From assembly GCA_020630675.1 (NCBI GenBank), contig JAHDIR010000019.1, positions 1 to 49,807 on the forward strand: 49,807 nucleotides of DNA, in the 5' to 3' direction. How positions within the stretch are numbered: the stretch's first letter is position 1; each line of letters starts with the position of its first letter. Below are positions 6,613-49,638 of the stretch, piece after piece. The DNA comes from Bdellovibrionales bacterium (GTDB lineage Bacteria > Bdellovibrionota > Bdellovibrionia > Bdellovibrionales > UBA1609). A program made the position numbers and the translations under genes. The notes under the pieces are model-generated. The model was not told where the DNA came from, ran no database searches, and was given only the letters and a program-made list of their open reading frames with translations.

Positions 6613-6637
6613 AAAAAATGAGTAAAAGCTTTTTACT
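6613..6637 (-). terminator. Rho-independent terminator of the LamG lipoprotein gene
   Basis: Read on the minus strand, an AGTAAAAAGC/TTTTACT stem overlaps the stop codon and is followed by CATTTTTTTATA. This is a typical hairpin plus U-tract placed right at the end of the gene. Confidence 0.65.
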
Positions 6638-7562
6638 GAGCTGAAACAAAGGTGGTCGGAGCATTGTCTTTGTAAGGATGGGTGTTATCCAGCTGAAAAG
6701 CTCTACCCCATTTGTGTGCTAAATAACCTTCCATTTTTAAGCGATCTGATTCACTTAATGAGTCTGCAAACCAAACAATTTCAGCAATATGCCCTTTGTA
6801 CAAGTTACTAAAAGAAGTGTTGATATAAGAACCCAAGCGAGCTGGGCCCGCTGAAGCCGTATTTAGGTTTTGAAATTGGCTGTCTAAAACACCATTGTGG
6901 TAAAGTGTAAGACTGTTGCCTGTTCTATGATGTGTTTCAAAAATCCAGTCCCCTGAGGAATAATAGGAAGAGAAACGCCAGTTATTTCTGTCATAGTATT
7001 TGTAGCGATTTCCAGTTGAACTTGATGTAATCATAAAGTCTTCTGCTGCCGTTGGGTAAGTGGACATAATCACTCCAAGGCCGTTATCTGTATCTTGAAA
7101 ATAAACAATAAAAGCTGTGAAATTTTGGTTGGGTTGCCAGTTAGCACTAACTATATCTAAGGTTTGTTGATTCGTTTTAGCAAAATAAATAGCATCAAGG
7201 TTGTTCTGCGCCGAAGCAACAAGCTCTGGCCTTCTGCTTGTTTCACTTTGGGTGGCATTTTTATTGTTACCGCTTTTATCAAGCCAACAACCGATAGGGT
7301 CTGAGTTGGAGGCTGCAGGGGTTGAGCAGCCACTGTCTTGAAATAAAGAGTCACTGTCGCTGGCATCTAGCCACATAAGCATTCCAGAAACATCACCAGG
7401 GACAAAGGCAACTTCAGTGCCTTCGTTAGCCGGGGGAGTTTGTTCAGTTTCGGGTTCTTCACCATAAATGAGTTCATCGACTTCATTACATTGAAGTATA
7501 AAGAGACTTAAAAAAAGAATTATAAAGACTTTAGTTTTTTCTACTAGAATTGGGCTTGTCAT
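6633..7562 (-). CDS. LamG-like (concanavalin-fold) lipoprotein
   Basis: This is a secreted lipoprotein of 309 aa. The hydrophobic signal segment ends in the lipobox LFILQC. A low-complexity Glu/Thr/Pro linker follows, then a concanavalin A-like/LamG-type jelly-roll domain that starts around MLMWLDASDSDS. It ends with a helix of the type EGYLAHKWG, common at the end of such domains. The ATG at 7562 is preferred over an upstream in-frame TTG at 7574, because GGAT lies upstream of the ATG and nothing resembling an SD precedes the TTG. A sigma-28-like promoter lies 47 nt upstream. The likely role is surface or periplasmic glycan or protein binding; the ligand is unknown. Fold similarity to the array at 42730-49807 is clear, but sequence similarity is low. 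Confidence 0.75.
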   Translation of the reverse strand: MTSPILVEKTKVFIILFLSLFILQCNEVDELIYGEEPETEQTPPANEGTEVAFVPGDVSGMLMWLDASDSDSLFQDSGCSTPAASNSDPIGCWLDKSGNNKNATQSETSRRPELVASAQNNLDAIYFAKTNQQTLDIVSANWQPNQNFTAFIVYFQDTDNGLGVIMSTYPTAAEDFMITSSSTGNRYKYYDRNNWRFSSYYSSGDWIFETHHRTGNSLTLYHNGVLDSQFQNLNTASAGPARLGSYINTSFSNLYKGHIAEIVWFADSLSESDRLKMEGYLAHKWGRAFQLDNTHPYKDNAPTTFVSAQ

Positions 7563-7615
7563 AGTTTGATCCAATGCGGTTTTGATTAAACGTACAATAT
7601 TACACCGCTAATTAA

Positions 7616-7643
7616 TTATCGGGACTAAAGGCCCAAGACTTTA
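7616..7643 (-). promoter_or_regulatory. Sigma-28-like promoter of the LamG lipoprotein gene
   Basis: On the minus strand TAAAGTCT (7643-7636), a 12-nt spacer and CCCGATAA (7623-7616) match the flagellar sigma consensus TAAAGTTT-N11-GCCGATAA at 7 of 8 and 7 of 8 positions, with one extra spacer base. The predicted transcript start is near 7609, 47 nt before the ATG. Confidence 0.6.
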
Positions 7644-24446: not shown

Positions 24447-24474
24447 TTAAGAAATTCAGTAGAATTTCCGATAA
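24447..24474 (+). promoter_or_regulatory. Sigma-28-like promoter of the coiled-coil gene
   Basis: TTAAG (24447-24451) precedes TCCGATAA (24467-24474), which matches GCCGATAA at 7 of 8 positions. The spacing equals that of the LamG array promoters (TTAA, 16 nt, -10 box). The predicted +1 is about 24481, two bases before the ATG. Confidence 0.5.
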
Positions 24475-24482
24475 CTTGCTAG

Positions 24483-25373
24483 ATGAAGAAGAAAAAGGGA
24501 AAAGTTTTAGCATTAGAGCTCGTTGATGACTTGTTGGCCGAAGGGTCTTCTGAGTCTAACGAACTTCAGTCTTTAAAGACAAGCACTGAGCAGGAAATAG
24601 AGTTAGCTAAAACAGAAGTTCTTCCTTTGAACTCTCAAACAACATCTTCACGAACAGACTTAACAACTAAACTTACAGATGAAGAGCTCAGTCAATTCGA
24701 GATGGCTGACTTAGAAATACCTCAGCCGTCGAAAACAACCTCGAGCTTGAGAACTCATGCAGGGGCTCGAAGTCAAACAGAACTCAATTTAGATCATTCA
24801 ATGAATTTAAAACGGGCTCAGGAAAAAATCTTAGACCTAGAATCTATGATTGAGGATTTGCGTCGTGAAAACGAGAAACTCCATGCAGCCAGTCAGACCT
24901 TTAAAAAGCATGGAGATGAACTTCAAGTTCGTGTAAGTGACCTACAGTTGGAGCTATCGTCCCTAAAAGACCAAGCTCAAGATGAGAAGAAACTATTGAT
25001 GTCGGCCATTGATCAAAAAGAGAGATCTTTGGATGGGGAACGACTAGAAAAAGAACAATTGCAAAGTCGTTTAAACTCAAACTTAAAAAAGATTAGAGTC
25101 AGAGAGCGAGAATTAGAAAATCGCCTTGAGATTGTTCGTTTGGAAAACTTCTCTCTGCAAAGAAGTAAAGATGAGCATATACTTGGCCTAAAAAGACAGA
25201 TTGATGAGATTGATACCGAGTTAGAATCCTATAGAGATAAAGCTAAATATATAAGTTTAGAACTGCAAAAAAAGAAACAAATGTTAAGAAAAACCGTGAA
25301 GGCTCTTCGATTAGCTTTAACATTACTTGAGAGTGATGAAAAAGATTTAAAAGTAGCTGCAAATGGTGACTAA
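24483..25373 (+). CDS. Coiled-coil protein of unknown function
   Basis: This 296-aa acidic/basic mixed protein has no signal peptide or membrane segment. Residues of about 1-95 are Ser/Thr/Glu-rich and probably disordered. Residues of about 105-275 have heptad-like Leu and charged residues, consistent with a long coiled coil. I do not recognise the family. No SD precedes the ATG; instead a sigma-28-like -10 box lies 8 bases upstream, suggesting a leaderless mRNA. The genes downstream are a metallophosphoesterase, pgi and a diguanylate cyclase, so a signalling or cytoskeletal scaffold role is possible but speculative. Confidence 0.65.
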   Translation: MKKKKGKVLALELVDDLLAEGSSESNELQSLKTSTEQEIELAKTEVLPLNSQTTSSRTDLTTKLTDEELSQFEMADLEIPQPSKTTSSLRTHAGARSQTELNLDHSMNLKRAQEKILDLESMIEDLRRENEKLHAASQTFKKHGDELQVRVSDLQLELSSLKDQAQDEKKLLMSAIDQKERSLDGERLEKEQLQSRLNSNLKKIRVRERELENRLEIVRLENFSLQRSKDEHILGLKRQIDEIDTELESYRDKAKYISLELQKKKQMLRKTVKALRLALTLLESDEKDLKVAANGD

Positions 25374-37907: not shown

Positions 37908-37918
37908 ATAGAAATGAC

Positions 37919-37946
37919 TAAAGTTGAGACAAATTCGGCCGATAAG
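37919..37946 (+). promoter_or_regulatory. Sigma-28-like promoter of the PilZ gene
   Basis: TAAAAGTT (37919-37926), 12 nt, and a perfect GCCGATAA (37939-37946). The predicted +1 is near 37953, giving a 48-nt leader with a strong SD before the ATG at 38001. Confidence 0.65.
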
Positions 37947-42645: not shown

Positions 42646-42702
42646 GAGTTAAATATTTTCTTAATTCCATTTTTTTTAAAAAAAATTCTTATTTTTTAAC
42701 TC
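42646..42702 (+). terminator. Possible terminator after cpaF
   Basis: The arms GAGTTAAA and TTTAACTC enclose an AT-rich segment with an internal T8A8 palindrome. It ends 14 nt before the GCCGATAA box of the LamG array. Weak and AT-rich, but well placed. Confidence 0.3.
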
Positions 42703-42723
42703 TGCCTTAGTTTTTGCCGATAA
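42696..42723 (+). promoter_or_regulatory. Sigma-28 promoter of LamG array gene A
   Basis: TTAAC (42696-42700) and a perfect GCCGATAA (42716-42723); read as TAAC-N15-GCCGATAA it matches the TAAA-N15-GCCGATAA consensus except one base. Six bases later comes the GTG start (42730), so the predicted +1 is its G. Confidence 0.62.
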
Positions 42724-42729
42724 ATAAGA

Positions 42730-45700
42730 GTGAAAAATTATTTTTTGTTAGTTTTTTATAGCTTTCTTTTTTTATATATTTTGCCGTCCTGTGAATATAA
42801 AAAAACATCTTTTGAGCTAGACGCTTTGTTTGAACCGACATTAGATTTTTCTAAAACGTCTCAATTTACTTTTGATGAAAACTTTGTCGAAGTGAAAAAT
42901 GGTAAAGCTCAACTAAAACCATTAGACTTAAAACAAACAGAAAACGATTTTAATCGTGGAAATTATGTTGGCACTTTTTATGACTCTCAATCAAAAGTTA
43001 TCCGCCCCTTAGAGATTGATCAAGTGAATGTAAACTCAATACTTCCGAACCGTCTTTTAAATTTACAAGGCTACTGGAAGTTTGATGGCGATTACCATGA
43101 TCAGTCCATGAACAATGATTCAGGGGTCACTTCTGGTGGCGTTGTTTTTGAGCCCGGTTTAGTAAGGCAAGGTGTTTCTCTTGATGGTATTGATGGTTTT
43201 GTTGACCTTGGTTCTTCCGTGGTCGATACAGGCTCAGGCCAAACATTTAGTATTTCATTTTGGACAGAAGTGGATAGTTATACCGCAAACTACCTAGCGA
43301 CCATTGGCCACAGGTTCATTCATACAGATAGCCATCAATATGGTTTAATGTGTTTCTCACATGATTACTCAGGGTCATTAGAGTTTAGATGTGGTTATCG
43401 GTATTACGACTCTGGAATAAGTTACTCAGAAAGAAAAATATTTGGTAACTTAACGGGTTGGCAACATGTGGCTATAACTTCTGATGGAACGAATGTTTTT
43501 TATTATCATAACGGCAGTTTAGTTGATACAGGAGTTACAGGAACAACCCCTAGTAATATAGGCCAGAGTTTATTCTTGGGAAAAAACTTACCCATTAGTT
43601 CTCATTTTTCTGATTCTAAAATAGATGAGCTTGCGATTTATAACACTCAATTGACAAGCGTAGAGATCAATAAATTATATTCTAATAGTGTTTTATCAAC
43701 AGAACTTTCTTCGAGTTGGGCTCCTAAATGGGATAACCTCGTTGGCTACTGGAAAATGGATGGTAACTGGCGAGACTCTTCAGGAAACAATTATCATATG
43801 ACAGCCCAAAATGGCTCAGCCTTTATTTCTGACTCAAAGGTGGGTATTCATAGTGGTGTCTTTGATGGGTCGGATGATCTTTCAACATCTTCAGCGAATA
43901 TACCTTCACTCACTTCTAGTTCAACTTTTTCAACATGGATTCATCGAAGTGTCAGCTCGGGAACCGATAGGGAGTCAATTATTTCAAAGGCTGGTGGAAG
44001 CGATGACGTTACGGGCTCTCGACAACCTAGAATGGACATTTATAATAATAAAGCGAGACTAATTATGAGGCTCGCAGGAGTAAATTATATAATTAGTTCC
44101 GTCAGTAATATTGAAAAGGAAAATTGGTACCACTTAGTTGGTACATATGACCATGTCAGTGGAGCAGCTAGTGTTTATGTAAATGGGTCCTTAGAGGCCA
44201 CGAGTATAATTCCTGCGATGTCTATTGTTGGACAGACGGGCGGAATTGCTTTGTCGAGCTCTTATGGATACGAAGCTTCCGAAACCTACAGATGGAACGG
44301 TAGTATAGATGATGCGGCTGTTTGGAGTGTGAGCCTTTCTCCTGAAGAGGTTTTCTTAATTTATAACCGTCAAAAGCAAAAATACGCCGGCCACTTTGAT
44401 TCGGAAGTGATTGATTTAGGAAGTACAACTTCTAATTGGCCAGACCTGTCTTGGTCAACCAGTTTGCCATTTGGCAAAGAGTTAGTGGGTGACTATAATA
44501 ATGATGGCAATACCGAAAGTGAAAGTTCTTTAAGTTACTCTTCAATTTACCAACAATTGAATCATGGTTTAATTTCGTATTGGAGCTTTAATGAAGAAGT
44601 AACTGGTACAGCACCTTCCGGGTTAGATCTCAAAGATTTAGTCGGAAGTAACCATGTTTCCATTCATAGTAATTTTAATTTAGGAAAAACTGGTCTATTA
44701 TCAAAGGCTATAGAACTACCCGGAACGCCTAACACTATTGGGATTGCTGACTCAAATGCCTTAAAGCCTACAGATGAACTAACCTATGTCATATGGTATA
44801 AAAGGTACCCTAACAACCCTCAAGAATACTCTGGCTTTGTAATCAATGAATCTTTTGGCGACGGACAGGGAACTTACTTTGGAGATTATTCAGGGGGTGG
44901 TGATGACGTCATTTGCTTTAGAGTTAATGCTGACAATACAAACGGTGTTTGTGAACCTAATGTAGTTTTTTATAGATGGGTTCATTACTCTGTTACATTC
45001 AGTAATGGGTCATTAAAATTTTACAGAGACGGAATTTTAGTTGATAGTTCAACAACTTCAAATGCAACAATTACTCCAAGAGTAACGACGTCGTTAATAC
45101 TTCATTACTTAAATGGCTTAGCCGATGAACTGGCCATTTGGGAAAGGGCTCTTTCCGCAGACGAAGTTCAACAAATTTACCGTCGTGGTGCGAATCGAAT
45201 TAAGTTACAAGTAAAAAGCTGCGTAGACTCTAATTGCGAGTGTAAAAGCTTTAGCTCCTCTCCGCAAGGCTCGGCAGCAGACTGTGATGGTGACACTATC
45301 GTAAATGCTTTAGATTTTGATGACCCTCATAAGGCCGATTTCATAGGCCCTGGTGGCGATGGCGCCACTTATTATTCTGAAGCCTTTAACCGCAAAGGTA
45401 CGGACACACTTTTTAATTGCGGAAACAATACTTCAGACAGTGATGGAAATATATGTGTAAACGATGAAATTAGTTTGATCGGTAGCCCAAAACCAGAAGG
45501 CCCCTCTATTGATTTTACTGACTTTCCTTTGTCGGCAAAACCATTAGACAATCAATATATTCAGTACCGTGTTTATATGGAAGCCGATGACAATACGGCT
45601 TGTCAGGGCAGTCCTTGTTTGCCAGAGCTTTCATCTGTGAATCTAAACCCAAGTGGAGCTACTAAATACTATGGAAGCGTGCAAGAAATTAAATCCATTC

Positions 45701-45990
45701 AACCGATCATTTATAAAGACATTCAATCTGTCAAAGTGATTGCTGATGATTGTGTGACCTATCAGTTAAGTCCGGATGGTACAAACTACTATCATTGGAT
45801 ATCTAATGCCTGGGCGCCGGTGACCTCTCATATAGATAGCTCCAATCAGTCAGATTTTGCAAATTATATTTCTAATTATTCAAGTCAGTTTGGTTCAGGT
45901 CAGCTTTTTATAAAAGCTCTTTTACAAACAAACTCTCAGCAAAGCTCCAATTGTTCAATCAAGTCTATAGACTTTAATTACTCTAAGTAA
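42730..45990 (+). CDS. Giant LamG-repeat lipoprotein, array gene A
   Basis: This 1086-aa surface lipoprotein has the lipobox ILPSC (Cys20-21). A shared N-terminal segment is followed by three LamG/concanavalin-like modules (about 115-320, 335-550 and 615-810), each opening with a GYWKFDG-type motif. The C-terminal 284 residues have Cys pairs and Asp-rich Ca-binding-like loops (DCDGDTIVNALDFDD). Constant segments match gene B base for base, while the LamG modules differ. The start is a GTG without SD, next to a sigma-28 -10 box. The likely role is adhesion or recognition at the cell surface. Confidence 0.8.
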   Translation: MKNYFLLVFYSFLFLYILPSCEYKKTSFELDALFEPTLDFSKTSQFTFDENFVEVKNGKAQLKPLDLKQTENDFNRGNYVGTFYDSQSKVIRPLEIDQVNVNSILPNRLLNLQGYWKFDGDYHDQSMNNDSGVTSGGVVFEPGLVRQGVSLDGIDGFVDLGSSVVDTGSGQTFSISFWTEVDSYTANYLATIGHRFIHTDSHQYGLMCFSHDYSGSLEFRCGYRYYDSGISYSERKIFGNLTGWQHVAITSDGTNVFYYHNGSLVDTGVTGTTPSNIGQSLFLGKNLPISSHFSDSKIDELAIYNTQLTSVEINKLYSNSVLSTELSSSWAPKWDNLVGYWKMDGNWRDSSGNNYHMTAQNGSAFISDSKVGIHSGVFDGSDDLSTSSANIPSLTSSSTFSTWIHRSVSSGTDRESIISKAGGSDDVTGSRQPRMDIYNNKARLIMRLAGVNYIISSVSNIEKENWYHLVGTYDHVSGAASVYVNGSLEATSIIPAMSIVGQTGGIALSSSYGYEASETYRWNGSIDDAAVWSVSLSPEEVFLIYNRQKQKYAGHFDSEVIDLGSTTSNWPDLSWSTSLPFGKELVGDYNNDGNTESESSLSYSSIYQQLNHGLISYWSFNEEVTGTAPSGLDLKDLVGSNHVSIHSNFNLGKTGLLSKAIELPGTPNTIGIADSNALKPTDELTYVIWYKRYPNNPQEYSGFVINESFGDGQGTYFGDYSGGGDDVICFRVNADNTNGVCEPNVVFYRWVHYSVTFSNGSLKFYRDGILVDSSTTSNATITPRVTTSLILHYLNGLADELAIWERALSADEVQQIYRRGANRIKLQVKSCVDSNCECKSFSSSPQGSAADCDGDTIVNALDFDDPHKADFIGPGGDGATYYSEAFNRKGTDTLFNCGNNTSDSDGNICVNDEISLIGSPKPEGPSIDFTDFPLSAKPLDNQYIQYRVYMEADDNTACQGSPCLPELSSVNLNPSGATKYYGSVQEIKSIQPIIYKDIQSVKVIADDCVTYQLSPDGTNYYHWISNAWAPVTSHIDSSNQSDFANYISNYSSQFGSGQLFIKALLQTNSQQSSNCSIKSIDFNYSK
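42838..42902 (+). repeat. Constant block 1, gene A copy (65 bp)
   Basis: Identical to 46282-46346 in gene B. Encodes the post-signal segment TLDFSKTSQFTFDENFVEVK and a few further residues. Confidence 0.88.
43716..43787 (+). repeat. Constant block 2, gene A copy (72 bp)
   Basis: Identical to 47172-47243. Encodes the junction between the first and second LamG modules, WAPKWDNLVGYWKMDGNWRD and a few further residues. Confidence 0.88.
44358..44525 (+). repeat. Constant block 3, gene A copy (168 bp)
   Basis: Identical to 47832-47999. Encodes the linker between the second and third modules, including YNRQKQKYAGHFDSEVIDLG and the Asp/Asn-rich DYNNDGNTESE. Confidence 0.9.
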
Positions 45991-46173
45991 CGAAACACTC
46001 CAGATTGTTGAAATATATTTTTAACTCAAAATCTATGCCTTTTTTTATGGGCCTAGGTATAGTTAGCTATTTAGTCCCGTAAAAGAGGTAATTAGATAAT
46101 AAAAAGCCAAATTTATTTACAAAAACTAACCGTAATTCTTTAATTCTCATATCATATTTGCCGATAAATAAGA
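45991..46173. other. Spacer between array genes A and B
   Basis: This 183-nt AT-rich spacer is repeated identically after gene B (49462-49644). It ends in the sigma-28 -10 box and GTG start. The T7 run near 46040 may serve termination; no strong hairpin is seen. Confidence 0.5.
46140..46167 (+). promoter_or_regulatory. Sigma-28 promoter of LamG array gene B
   Basis: TTAAT (46140-46144) and perfect GCCGATAA (46160-46167), with the same spacing to the GTG (46174) as gene A. The 5' spacer differs from that of gene A except for this core. Confidence 0.62.
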
Positions 46174-49100
46174 GTGAAAAAACCAGTATCATTAGTTATT
46201 TATATACTCTTTCTTTTTTTGATACTCCCATCTTGTGATTACAATAAAACTTCATTTGATCTACCTTCCATTTTTGAACCTACATTAGATTTTTCTAAAA
46301 CGTCTCAATTTACTTTTGATGAAAACTTTGTCGAAGTGAAAAATGGCAAAGCCCAGTTGAAAGCTTTAGACCTTGAGCATTCTGAAAGTGATTTTAATAG
46401 TGGAACTCATGTGGGAACTTACTTCAACAATAGTAGTTCAGATGTTAGTTTATTAAATTTTGACAACTCTAACCTATTAAATATTCTTCCCTCTAGGGCA
46501 GGAAACATATTTAGTTATTTGAGGCTAGATGGTGGCTTTAATGCAGAAAGTGGATTCGACGGTACTCCCAATAATGGAGGATCAGGACTTACTGTGACTG
46601 ATGGTAAAATAAATAATGGAATCATGTTTGATGGGTTAGATGATAGTATTAGTTTTGTTGCCCCTACTTTTACACAACTTTCAGCAAGTGCATGGGTAAA
46701 GCTAGAGAGCTATACAAATAGTTATCCAAGGTTTTTAGAATTAAATTTTAACTTTTCTGTTTGGGTTCAACAGCCACCAGAGCCGCCATGGGGAGACTTA
46801 GGCTCTGTTTATATTCGAGCAACCCACTCAGGTACCGATGGCTACTGGTATAGCGCTCCTGGCACCATTGAATTAGGAAAACTATACCATATTACTTTAT
46901 CTTACGATTCAAGTTCTAATACAAATAAACCTTTACTTGTTATTAATGGTCAGGTTGTACAACTCTTTGAAAGGTCTAAACCGGTAGGAACTTTTAATAA
47001 TACTGCAGGAACTGGTTATCTTGGGAACTGGGGGCTACCAAGTTCAAGAAACTGGCATGGGGTTATGGATGAATATGCTATTTTTGATGTTGCCTTGAGC
47101 GAAAGTGATCTTATTAAGATTTACGAATCACAAGAAAAATTTCAACTGTCAGACACGAGCTTACACCCTTCTTGGGCTCCTAAATGGGATAACCTCGTTG
47201 GCTACTGGAAAATGGATGGTAACTGGCGAGACTCTTCAGGAAATGGGAATCATGGTACTGTTTTTAATGGAGCCACAATTTCATTTGATGCCAATGTAGG
47301 AAACTCGGCAGGTTTATTTAACGAGTTAGTTAGTCATGATTATATTGAAATACCCAACACTACCGACTTGGAGAATATTCAAGCAGGACCATTTACAATG
47401 CAAGCTTGGTATAAGCCATTGAATGTACCAAGAAATATTGATCAAAGTACTAGAGCTCATGGTATTTTTAGTAAACCTGGTTGGCATGTCGGATTGGACT
47501 ATAATAATGATAACTCTTTTAGGTTCAATGTTCCAAATCATACTCCAGCACATCAACGTGCAACATCAAATCCAGTTTACCAAACGGGGACTTACTATCA
47601 CATTATGGGTGTATCTGATGGGCCTGGTGGGTTAGTTAAGTTATATGTAAATGGTAAATTGGTATCAATGGTTCCAAATACAGGAAGTTTTCCTAGCTAT
47701 GGTACGAATAATTTTTATATAGGAACAGGGTCACCGACTCTAAGTCCGGCCCATTCAACCTGGGCGGTTGATGGAATCATTGATGATGTGGCTCTTTGGA
47801 ATACTAACCTTAAAGCGATTGATGTCATTAAAATTTATAACCGTCAAAAGCAAAAATACGCCGGCCACTTTGATTCGGAAGTGATTGATTTAGGAAGTAC
47901 AACTTCTAATTGGCCAGACCTGTCTTGGTCAACCAGTTTGCCATTTGGCAAAGAGTTAGTGGGTGACTATAATAATGATGGCAATACCGAAAGTGAAAGC
48001 TCTTCTGTTTATTTTAGATTAAGTGAAAATTTAAATGAAGGGCTTGTAGGCTATTGGCCTTTAAATGAAAAAACACTTGATAGCGTGGGAGGAGCTGACT
48101 TTGCTGACTTCTCGGGAAATAGTTATGCATGTGATATCATTGTTGGTGGAGTTATTGCCAGTGAAGGCAAACTTGGCTCTTCATTTTCAGATGGTCAAGC
48201 GAGCTGTGGAGATAATTTAGCCTTTTCTGGAAGAAGTTCTTTTTCGGTTTCGGTATGGTTTAAAACTCTACTTAGCGGTTCTGGGCAGTTTTTTATGATT
48301 GTAAATAAAAGAGCAAACCCTGGCACTGGTCTTGAGGGTTGGGTATGCTACTTAGCAGGTAGTTCAGGTAAAGCTAGTTGCCGAAGAACTGTAGGGGGTG
48401 TTGAAAATGCCATCAACTCAATATCTCTTTTAAACGATGGGCTGTGGCATCACCTAGCTGCAACCTATGATGGTAATGTTGTTAAAAACTATGTTGATGG
48501 TGTGCTTCAAGGCACAGTAGTTGATACAAGAGATTTAATAAATGCTGGGCAAGATTTATCTTATGGTGATAATCAAGCCGATGCAGGTTCTGTGGATGAA
48601 GTTGCTATTTGGGAAAGGGCTCTTTCCGCAGACGAAGTTCAACAAATTTACCGTCGTGGTGCGAATCGAATTAAGTTACAAGTAAAAAGCTGCGTAGACT
48701 CTAATTGCGAGTGTAAAAGCTTTAGCTCCTCTCCGCAAGGCTCGGCAGCAGACTGTGATGGTGACACTATCGTAAATGCTTTAGATTTTGATGACCCTCA
48801 TAAGGCCGATTTCATAGGCCCTGGTGGCGATGGCGCCACTTATTATTCTGAAGCCTTTAACCGCAAAGGTACGGACACACTTTTTAATTGCGGAAACAAT
48901 ACTTCAGACAGTGATGGAAATATATGTGTAAACGATGAAATTAGTTTGATCGGTAGCCCAAAACCAGAAGGCCCCTCTATTGATTTTACTGACTTTCCTT
49001 TGTCGGCAAAACCATTAGACAATCAATATATTCAGTACCGTGTTTATATGGAAGCCGATGACAATACGGCTTGTCAGGGCAGTCCTTGTTTGCCAGAGCT

Positions 49101-49461
49101 TTCATCTGTGAATCTAAACCCAAGTGGAGCTACTAAATACTATGGAAGCGTGCAAGAAATTAAATCCATTCAACCGATCATTTATAAAGACATTCAATCT
49201 GTCAAAGTGATTGCTGATGATTGTGTGACCTATCAGTTAAGTCCGGATGGTACAAACTACTATCATTGGATATCTAATGCCTGGGCGCCGGTGACCTCTC
49301 ATATAGATAGCTCCAATCAGTCAGATTTTGCAAATTATATTTCTAATTATTCAAGTCAGTTTGGTTCAGGTCAGCTTTTTATAAAAGCTCTTTTACAAAC
49401 AAACTCTCAGCAAAGCTCCAATTGTTCAATCAAGTCTATAGACTTTAATTACTCTAAGTAA
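46174..49461 (+). CDS. Giant LamG-repeat lipoprotein, array gene B
   Basis: This 1095-aa paralogue of gene A has the lipobox ILPSC, the same constant segments and the same C-terminal 284 residues, but three different LamG modules. The first opens IFSYLRLDGGF, the second is entered through GNHGTVFNGATIS, and the third opens GLVGYWPLNEK. Module ends share SLSE/LSADEVQ-type helices (ADEVQQIYRRG). The GTG start has no SD and lies seven bases after the sigma-28 -10 box. It is a surface adhesin-like lipoprotein; the ligand is unknown. Confidence 0.8.
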   Translation: MKKPVSLVIYILFLFLILPSCDYNKTSFDLPSIFEPTLDFSKTSQFTFDENFVEVKNGKAQLKALDLEHSESDFNSGTHVGTYFNNSSSDVSLLNFDNSNLLNILPSRAGNIFSYLRLDGGFNAESGFDGTPNNGGSGLTVTDGKINNGIMFDGLDDSISFVAPTFTQLSASAWVKLESYTNSYPRFLELNFNFSVWVQQPPEPPWGDLGSVYIRATHSGTDGYWYSAPGTIELGKLYHITLSYDSSSNTNKPLLVINGQVVQLFERSKPVGTFNNTAGTGYLGNWGLPSSRNWHGVMDEYAIFDVALSESDLIKIYESQEKFQLSDTSLHPSWAPKWDNLVGYWKMDGNWRDSSGNGNHGTVFNGATISFDANVGNSAGLFNELVSHDYIEIPNTTDLENIQAGPFTMQAWYKPLNVPRNIDQSTRAHGIFSKPGWHVGLDYNNDNSFRFNVPNHTPAHQRATSNPVYQTGTYYHIMGVSDGPGGLVKLYVNGKLVSMVPNTGSFPSYGTNNFYIGTGSPTLSPAHSTWAVDGIIDDVALWNTNLKAIDVIKIYNRQKQKYAGHFDSEVIDLGSTTSNWPDLSWSTSLPFGKELVGDYNNDGNTESESSSVYFRLSENLNEGLVGYWPLNEKTLDSVGGADFADFSGNSYACDIIVGGVIASEGKLGSSFSDGQASCGDNLAFSGRSSFSVSVWFKTLLSGSGQFFMIVNKRANPGTGLEGWVCYLAGSSGKASCRRTVGGVENAINSISLLNDGLWHHLAATYDGNVVKNYVDGVLQGTVVDTRDLINAGQDLSYGDNQADAGSVDEVAIWERALSADEVQQIYRRGANRIKLQVKSCVDSNCECKSFSSSPQGSAADCDGDTIVNALDFDDPHKADFIGPGGDGATYYSEAFNRKGTDTLFNCGNNTSDSDGNICVNDEISLIGSPKPEGPSIDFTDFPLSAKPLDNQYIQYRVYMEADDNTACQGSPCLPELSSVNLNPSGATKYYGSVQEIKSIQPIIYKDIQSVKVIADDCVTYQLSPDGTNYYHWISNAWAPVTSHIDSSNQSDFANYISNYSSQFGSGQLFIKALLQTNSQQSSNCSIKSIDFNYSK
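46282..46346 (+). repeat. Constant block 1, gene B copy (65 bp)
   Basis: Identical to 42838-42902 in gene A, and to the visible part of gene C at the window end. Confidence 0.88.
47172..47243 (+). repeat. Constant block 2, gene B copy (72 bp)
   Basis: Identical to 43716-43787 in gene A; sequence diverges on both sides. Confidence 0.88.
47832..47999 (+). repeat. Constant block 3, gene B copy (168 bp)
   Basis: Identical to 44358-44525 in gene A; sequence diverges on both sides. Confidence 0.9.
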
Positions 49462-49630
49462 CGAAACACTCCAGATTGTTGAAATATATTTTTAACTCAA
49501 AATCTATGCCTTTTTTTATGGGCCTAGGTATAGTTAGCTATTTAGTCCCGTAAAAGAGGTAATTAGATAATAAAAAGCCAAATTTATTTACAAAAACTAA
49601 CCGTAATTCTTTAATTCTCATATCATATTT

Positions 49631-49638
49631 GCCGATAA
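49631..49638 (+). promoter_or_regulatory. Sigma-28 -10 box of LamG array gene C
   Basis: Perfect GCCGATAA, seven bases before the GTG at 49645, identical to the gene B promoter. Confidence 0.6.

Follow-up and report, generated by a model that had tools for sequence, protein, structure and literature searches.

A FliA-type promoter element abutting the start codon predicts leaderless transcripts of LamG lipoprotein genes in Bdellovibrionales

Here we asked why an element resembling the -10 box of a flagellar promoter should stand directly against the start codon in an array of genes for LamG lipoproteins, and whether the messages of these genes could lack a leader altogether. The window analysed is the entire contig C27, 49,807 bases long, of a 3.1-Mb draft genome in 110 contigs. 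On its plus strand the octamer GCCGATAA precedes the three array genes, called A, B and C (Table 1), and in each of them six bases separate it from the GTG, the G of which is base 7 past the box. An earlier note had claimed a perfect octamer at a fixed distance ahead of GTG in three genes, and both coordinates and spacing were reproduced. The box ends in TAA, a stop codon in frame with the gene, which makes GTG the earliest usable start downstream of it. The proteins begin VKNYFLLVFYSFLFLYILPSC and VKKPVSLVIYILFLFLILPSC, which are typical lipoprotein signal peptides, and those of A and B have three Laminin_G_3 stretches each; signal peptide, lipobox and LamG domains together mark them as LamG lipoproteins with a predicted location at the surface.

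The window holds five octamers compared with 0.74 expected by shuffling, a number that none of 100 shuffles reached, and the 3.1-Mb genome holds 143 compared with 65 for the pattern read backwards. As probes, two patterns were discarded: the octamer GCCGATAA alone is mostly intragenic (ORFs of 100 aa or more enclose 77 of the 105 distinct sites fetched), and TAA-N16-GCCGATAA proved too strict for a genome-wide search (7 matches, 3 of them in the array, against 3 reversed) because the paralogs have H at base 2 of the box.

Copy C equals B at 236 of 236 bases compared and is cut off by the end of the contig, so that it is not independent and statistically adds nothing; the independent cases are A and B. 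Upstream of these two, identity is 28-37% from -160 to -41 and 75% from -40 to -1, which bears out the remark that TTTAA[C/T]TCT keeps a constant distance in spite of differing flanks. That the shared block is a functionless residue of recent duplication would agree with the identity of B and C over the compared stretch and with the position of A, B, C14 and C57 in one clade. We find this explanation hardly credible, since the A/B flanks have diverged while the promoter block has been kept, and since diverged orthologs have the layout too and 112 of the 140 genomes of the order surveyed below contain the motif with an ATG 6 to 9 bases away.

Table 1. Positions of the putative promoter elements and genes in the window
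Feature	Position	Strand	Basis
TTAAG-N16-CCGATA site, non-LamG, abutting start	24447..24474	+	pattern match
296-aa gene, ATG at gap 8, no Shine-Dalgarno (0.3 kcal/mol)	24483..25373	+	ORF
-35-type element TTAAC, gene A	42696..42700	+	16 bases ahead of CCGATA, register as paralog TWAAG
-10-type element GCCGATAA, gene A	42716..42723	+	sequence match
Gene A, LamG lipoprotein, 1086 aa, GTG at predicted +1	42730..45990	+	ORF; Laminin_G_3 E 6.8e-48; signal peptide and lipobox
-35-type element TTAAT, gene B	46140..46144	+	sequence match
-10-type element GCCGATAA, gene B	46160..46167	+	sequence match
Gene B, LamG lipoprotein, 1095 aa, GTG at predicted +1	46174..49461	+	ORF; Laminin_G_3 E 7.8e-58
-35-type element TTAAT, copy C	49611..49615	+	identical to B
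-10-type element GCCGATAA, copy C	49631..49638	+	identical to B
Copy C, 5' end only, truncated at contig end	49645..49807	+	sequence

Paralogs and the match to the sigma-28 promoter

Paralogs were collected by protein similarity alone. Residues 1-149 of gene A gave 24 matches in its own genome; upstream sequence was inspected for 22 of these and left 18 distinct close paralogs with readable upstream DNA and start. All 18 have a box matching N[C/A/T]CGAT[A/G], with CGAT in every one and A as the next base in 17; in the distant paralog C60 the box is absent. Counted from the first base of the octamer, the -35 register has T-20 and A-18 in 18/18, A-17 in 16/18 and G-16 in 12/18, so that TTAAG or TAAAG is found at N16 before CCGATA, with the elements of A and B ending in C and T rather than G. 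Searched with the family alignment, 5 out of 47 genomes belonging to the taxonomic family proved to contain such genes; four of these, counting the genome studied, come from a single genus, and named genomes yielded no relatives.

The genome encodes a FliA/WhiG sigma factor (TIGR02479, 266.7 bits compared with a cut-off of 189.6) that is 92-93% identical to the FliA of three uncultured Bdellovibrionales records and 74% identical to that of Bdellovibrio bacteriovorus kdesi, which places the organism in Bdellovibrionales. We take WhiG to belong to the sigma-28 family, in agreement with the model name FliA_WhiG. The Bdellovibrio FliA consensus is given as TTAAG-N16-CCGATA, from 92 of the 140 mapped attack-phase promoters of B. 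bacteriovorus (Karunker 2013, PMC3627812), and the nearness of the paralog register to this published motif supports the prediction of a sigma-28 promoter. The same note had considered a flagellar promoter on a surface lipoprotein unusual, a view that does not hold for Bdellovibrio, where FliA is described as an attack-phase master regulator and also drives genes for surface proteins (PMC3627812). As fliA is reported to be essential in B. bacteriovorus (PMC5430801, where inducible Bdellovibrio FliA was combined with a reporter in E. coli delta-fliA), a fliA mutant may be unobtainable. Two flagellin genes of the genome studied (L038 and L040) lack an HCGATA[A/C/T] box in the 300 bases ahead of them, the presence of a FliA gene notwithstanding. 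In the sister-species genome G019 several family promoters (L116, L131, L133, L137, L141) have in common a TTTA[A/G]C some 12-15 bases ahead of the box, off the usual place of the -35 element.

Gap, Shine-Dalgarno pairing and start codon

The distance between box and start codon (the gap) was compared with Shine-Dalgarno pairing and start codon in 32 family genes from four genomes (18 from the genome studied, 12 from G019 and one each from G020 and G021), the start being the first in-frame one past the box. Left out were copy C for its identity with B, C64 at a contig start, C54, the masked C89b, the distant relatives without a box (C60, G019_29, G021_39, G021_151 and G025_4), G019_12 with a degenerate ACCGAAAA and an ATG at gap 9, and G020b, in which a box but no start codon was found. 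The gaps fall into two classes with nothing between 10 and 16: 18 genes have short gaps (one at 4, six at 6, five at 7, one at 8 and five at 9) and 14 have long ones of 17-28.

The two classes also differ in how their starts would be recognized. Anti-Shine-Dalgarno duplex energies range from -2.9 to 0.3 in the short class and from -7.8 to -3.3, plus one value of 2.4, in the long class (Mann-Whitney P = 3.6e-5). A and B, at -0.4 kcal/mol, have no Shine-Dalgarno ahead of the GTG, as had been claimed. Short-gap genes start with ATG (10), GTG (7) or TTG (1), that is, with ATG or GTG in 17/18, and long-gap genes with ATG (1), GTG (3) or TTG (10), the difference in TTG (1/18 vs 10/14) being significant (Fisher P = 1.4e-4). 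When the start with the best Shine-Dalgarno was chosen instead, four genes moved to the long class (14 short and 18 long, two of the latter at 15 and 16) and no TTG was left in the short class. Two genes are exceptions: G019_45, which lacks a Shine-Dalgarno at a gap of 24, and G019_33b, in which a TTG at gap 4 is followed by a second TTG at 16, the latter preceded by a Shine-Dalgarno.

A promoter that fixes the 5' end leaves room either for a start codon at that end or for a leader long enough to hold a Shine-Dalgarno, and the leaderless transcript proposed by the earlier note gains support from the covariation of gap, Shine-Dalgarno and start codon in the predicted sense and from an order-wide trough at gaps of 10-13. 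Leaderless mRNAs reportedly use UUG poorly, and GUG is reported to be functional on them in some species (PMC9031893). At least 8 changes between the leaderless and the leadered state were counted on a weakly supported family tree; its starred branches carry just 3 independent pairs, on which a sign test has low power and gives no significant result (median P = 0.5). With such a tree and such a test, the link with TTG comes in part from related genes.

Were the starts misassigned, with translation beginning farther in behind a normal Shine-Dalgarno, gene A would offer an in-frame TTG at gap 21. Shine-Dalgarno pairing ahead of this codon is weak (-2.4), a start there would truncate the signal peptide, and gene B has no alternative start at least 12 codons ahead of the lipobox Cys; we thus hold misassignment to be very improbable.

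Sites outside the family and across the order

Sites outside the family were defined as intergenic HCGATA with a downstream ATG or GTG gene start and were taken from sequence retrieved for three genomes in the genus. Gaps of 6-9 were found at 14 of 44 such sigma-28 hexamer sites and at 175 of 2348 permuted hexamers (P = 3.2e-6), the gaps of the latter being nearly flat, and with a -35 match at 12 of 26 sites compared with 6 of 69 controls. The genome studied has 36 matches to TWAAG-N16-HCGATA and 19 to the reversed control, only about twice as many, so that no non-family site carries much weight individually. The layout recurs in an ortholog group (L099, L300 and L332) with a gap of 6 in three species, about 50% protein identity and differing spacer bases, and in a FlaG-like pair (L330 and L298) with gaps of 7 and 6, the FlaG match of L330 (E 2.5e-4) lying below the curated cut-off. 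The window itself contains a non-LamG case (Table 1), the B. bacteriovorus ortholog of which has a gap of 11. A box also abuts the ATG of a gene for a lipoprotein beginning MLYVR in two species of the genus (L082 and L336, gaps 6 and 9). In B. bacteriovorus kdesi, short gaps occur at two sites, 1,770,737-1,770,774 (gap 7) and 2,740,375-2,740,413 (gap 8).

In 140 genomes of the order, TTAAG-N16-HCGATA followed by ATG was counted 322 times at gaps of 6-9, 112 times at 10-13 and 121 times at 16-19, the reversed controls in the same genomes giving 23, 30 and 21, respectively. The difference between gaps of 6-9 and 10-13 is significant (Wilcoxon P = 1.1e-13) in a set of genomes that are not independent. 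Thirty loci of the 6-9 set were read; in 18 of them the ATG opens a reading frame of 60 aa or more and the box lies outside any longer ORF, and 12 fail this test. Among 138 further genomes of the phylum outside the order, the 6-9 pattern was found 244 times compared with 33 reversed, the reversed pattern being here the only control.

These counts also bear on the possibility that the FliA promoters are real and that the working transcripts start farther upstream or read through, with translation independent of Shine-Dalgarno on an A/T-rich leader. Several genes of the window have neither box nor Shine-Dalgarno, and initiation of that kind on leaders may therefore occur here. Such an explanation leaves unaccounted for both the covariation of gap, Shine-Dalgarno and start codon and the order-wide trough, and we judge it quite unlikely.

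A further alternative is that leaderless genes are common under every sigma factor and that FliA genes merely share the habit, which would be compatible with leaderless FliA transcripts and would alter their scope only. Hexamers like TATAAT, that is, sigma-70-like, are enriched at gaps of 6-9 as well (17/139 vs 290/5357, P = 0.002), and this milder excess means that leaderlessness may not be specific to FliA. It is nonetheless smaller than the excess at sigma-28 sites and comes from a test that is noisy in A/T-rich DNA, so that we regard this wider scope as possible, if doubtful.

Proposed mechanism and known systems

Taking these results together, we consider it very probable that FliA-dependent leaderless mRNAs arise from a -10 element abutting the start codon, in the array and in the wider Bdellovibrionales. 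The sequence basis consists of the promoter match, the exact spacing, the absent Shine-Dalgarno, the start-codon bias, the bimodal gap, the recurrence in orthologs and the order-wide excess; from these we infer the use of the sites by FliA, the exact +1 and the translation of the leaderless message. The conserved block would be a FliA (sigma-28) promoter whose octamer, we presume, occupies -14 to -7 relative to the predicted +1. FliA RNA polymerase would start at the A or G of ATG or GTG, or no more than about three bases from it, and yield an mRNA with neither leader nor Shine-Dalgarno, on which the ribosome would have to begin at a start codon lying at the very 5' end. If B. bacteriovorus is a guide, these genes would be expressed in the attack phase, when the cells swim freely, and their products may be surface lectin-like lipoproteins contacting prey or surfaces. 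The sister paralogs would use the same promoter with a gap of 17-28 bases and mostly a Shine-Dalgarno and TTG, such that a single family would combine two modes of initiation under one sigma factor.

The closest known system is the FliA attack-phase regulon of B. bacteriovorus, which has the consensus TTAAG-N16-CCGATA, a related FliA and control of surface proteins as well as flagella; it differs in that the word leaderless is absent from the main text of the paper describing it (PMC3627812). In Deinococcus-Thermus the geometry is similar: a -10 element lies about 6-7 bp ahead of the ORF, the mRNAs are leaderless and starts were re-annotated, but that element is of the RpoD type, not that of a flagellar sigma factor, and the arrangement is reported for almost one third of the ORFs of D. 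radiodurans (PMC12340547). The whiH gene of Streptomyces coelicolor is cited as documented to be leaderless, and its -10 element, GCCGACAA, is of the WhiG type, but this is a single gene of an actinobacterium (PMC3160421). Known already are thus leaderless genes with an abutting -10 element under sigma-70 and one WhiG case, the variant proposed here being a FliA regulon. Our literature search found no title or opening of an abstract describing leaderless FliA transcripts in these bacteria, and nothing relevant on LamG or lipoprotein in Bdellovibrio. Reporters without a ribosome-binding site are weakly to moderately active in B. bacteriovorus (PMC12622784); they bear only loosely on the matter because we saw no indication there of a leaderless construction.

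A survey of leaderless genes considered sigma-70-like boxes only and judged that few genes were likely to have escaped it (PMC3160421), and the regulon of an alternative sigma factor that appears to hold many leaderless genes stands in contrast to that view. Leaderless FliA transcripts would correct the annotation of start codons and guide the design of expression in predatory bacteria. The bimodal gap within one paralog family would offer a natural experiment on the passage between leaderless and leadered states and would also bear on why the leaderless state is nearly without TTG. Going beyond this, much of the FliA regulon of Bdellovibrionota might be leaderless by design and give the attack phase its own mode of translation initiation, with paralogs repeatedly switching between leaderless ATG/GTG and leadered Shine-Dalgarno forms, mostly with TTG, and the state of the ribosome setting both sets apart; this we put forward as a speculation that is rather unlikely.

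The window has further features of its own. TAAAGTT together with GCCGATAA occupies 37918-37945, 37 bases ahead of the GTG (37983) of a PilZ-domain gene, in the manner of a leadered flagellar-type promoter, and TAAAG-N16-CCGATA is found at 7617-7643 on the minus strand upstream of a 313-aa gene (6633-7574), with a TTG at gap 41 or an ATG at gap 53. Genes A and B share blocks that are 99-100% identical (43716-43787 with 47172-47243, 44358-44530 with 47832-48004 and 45124-45423 with 48595-48894), the segments between them being diverged, and this cassette-like mosaic suggests gene conversion or recombination among the paralogs.
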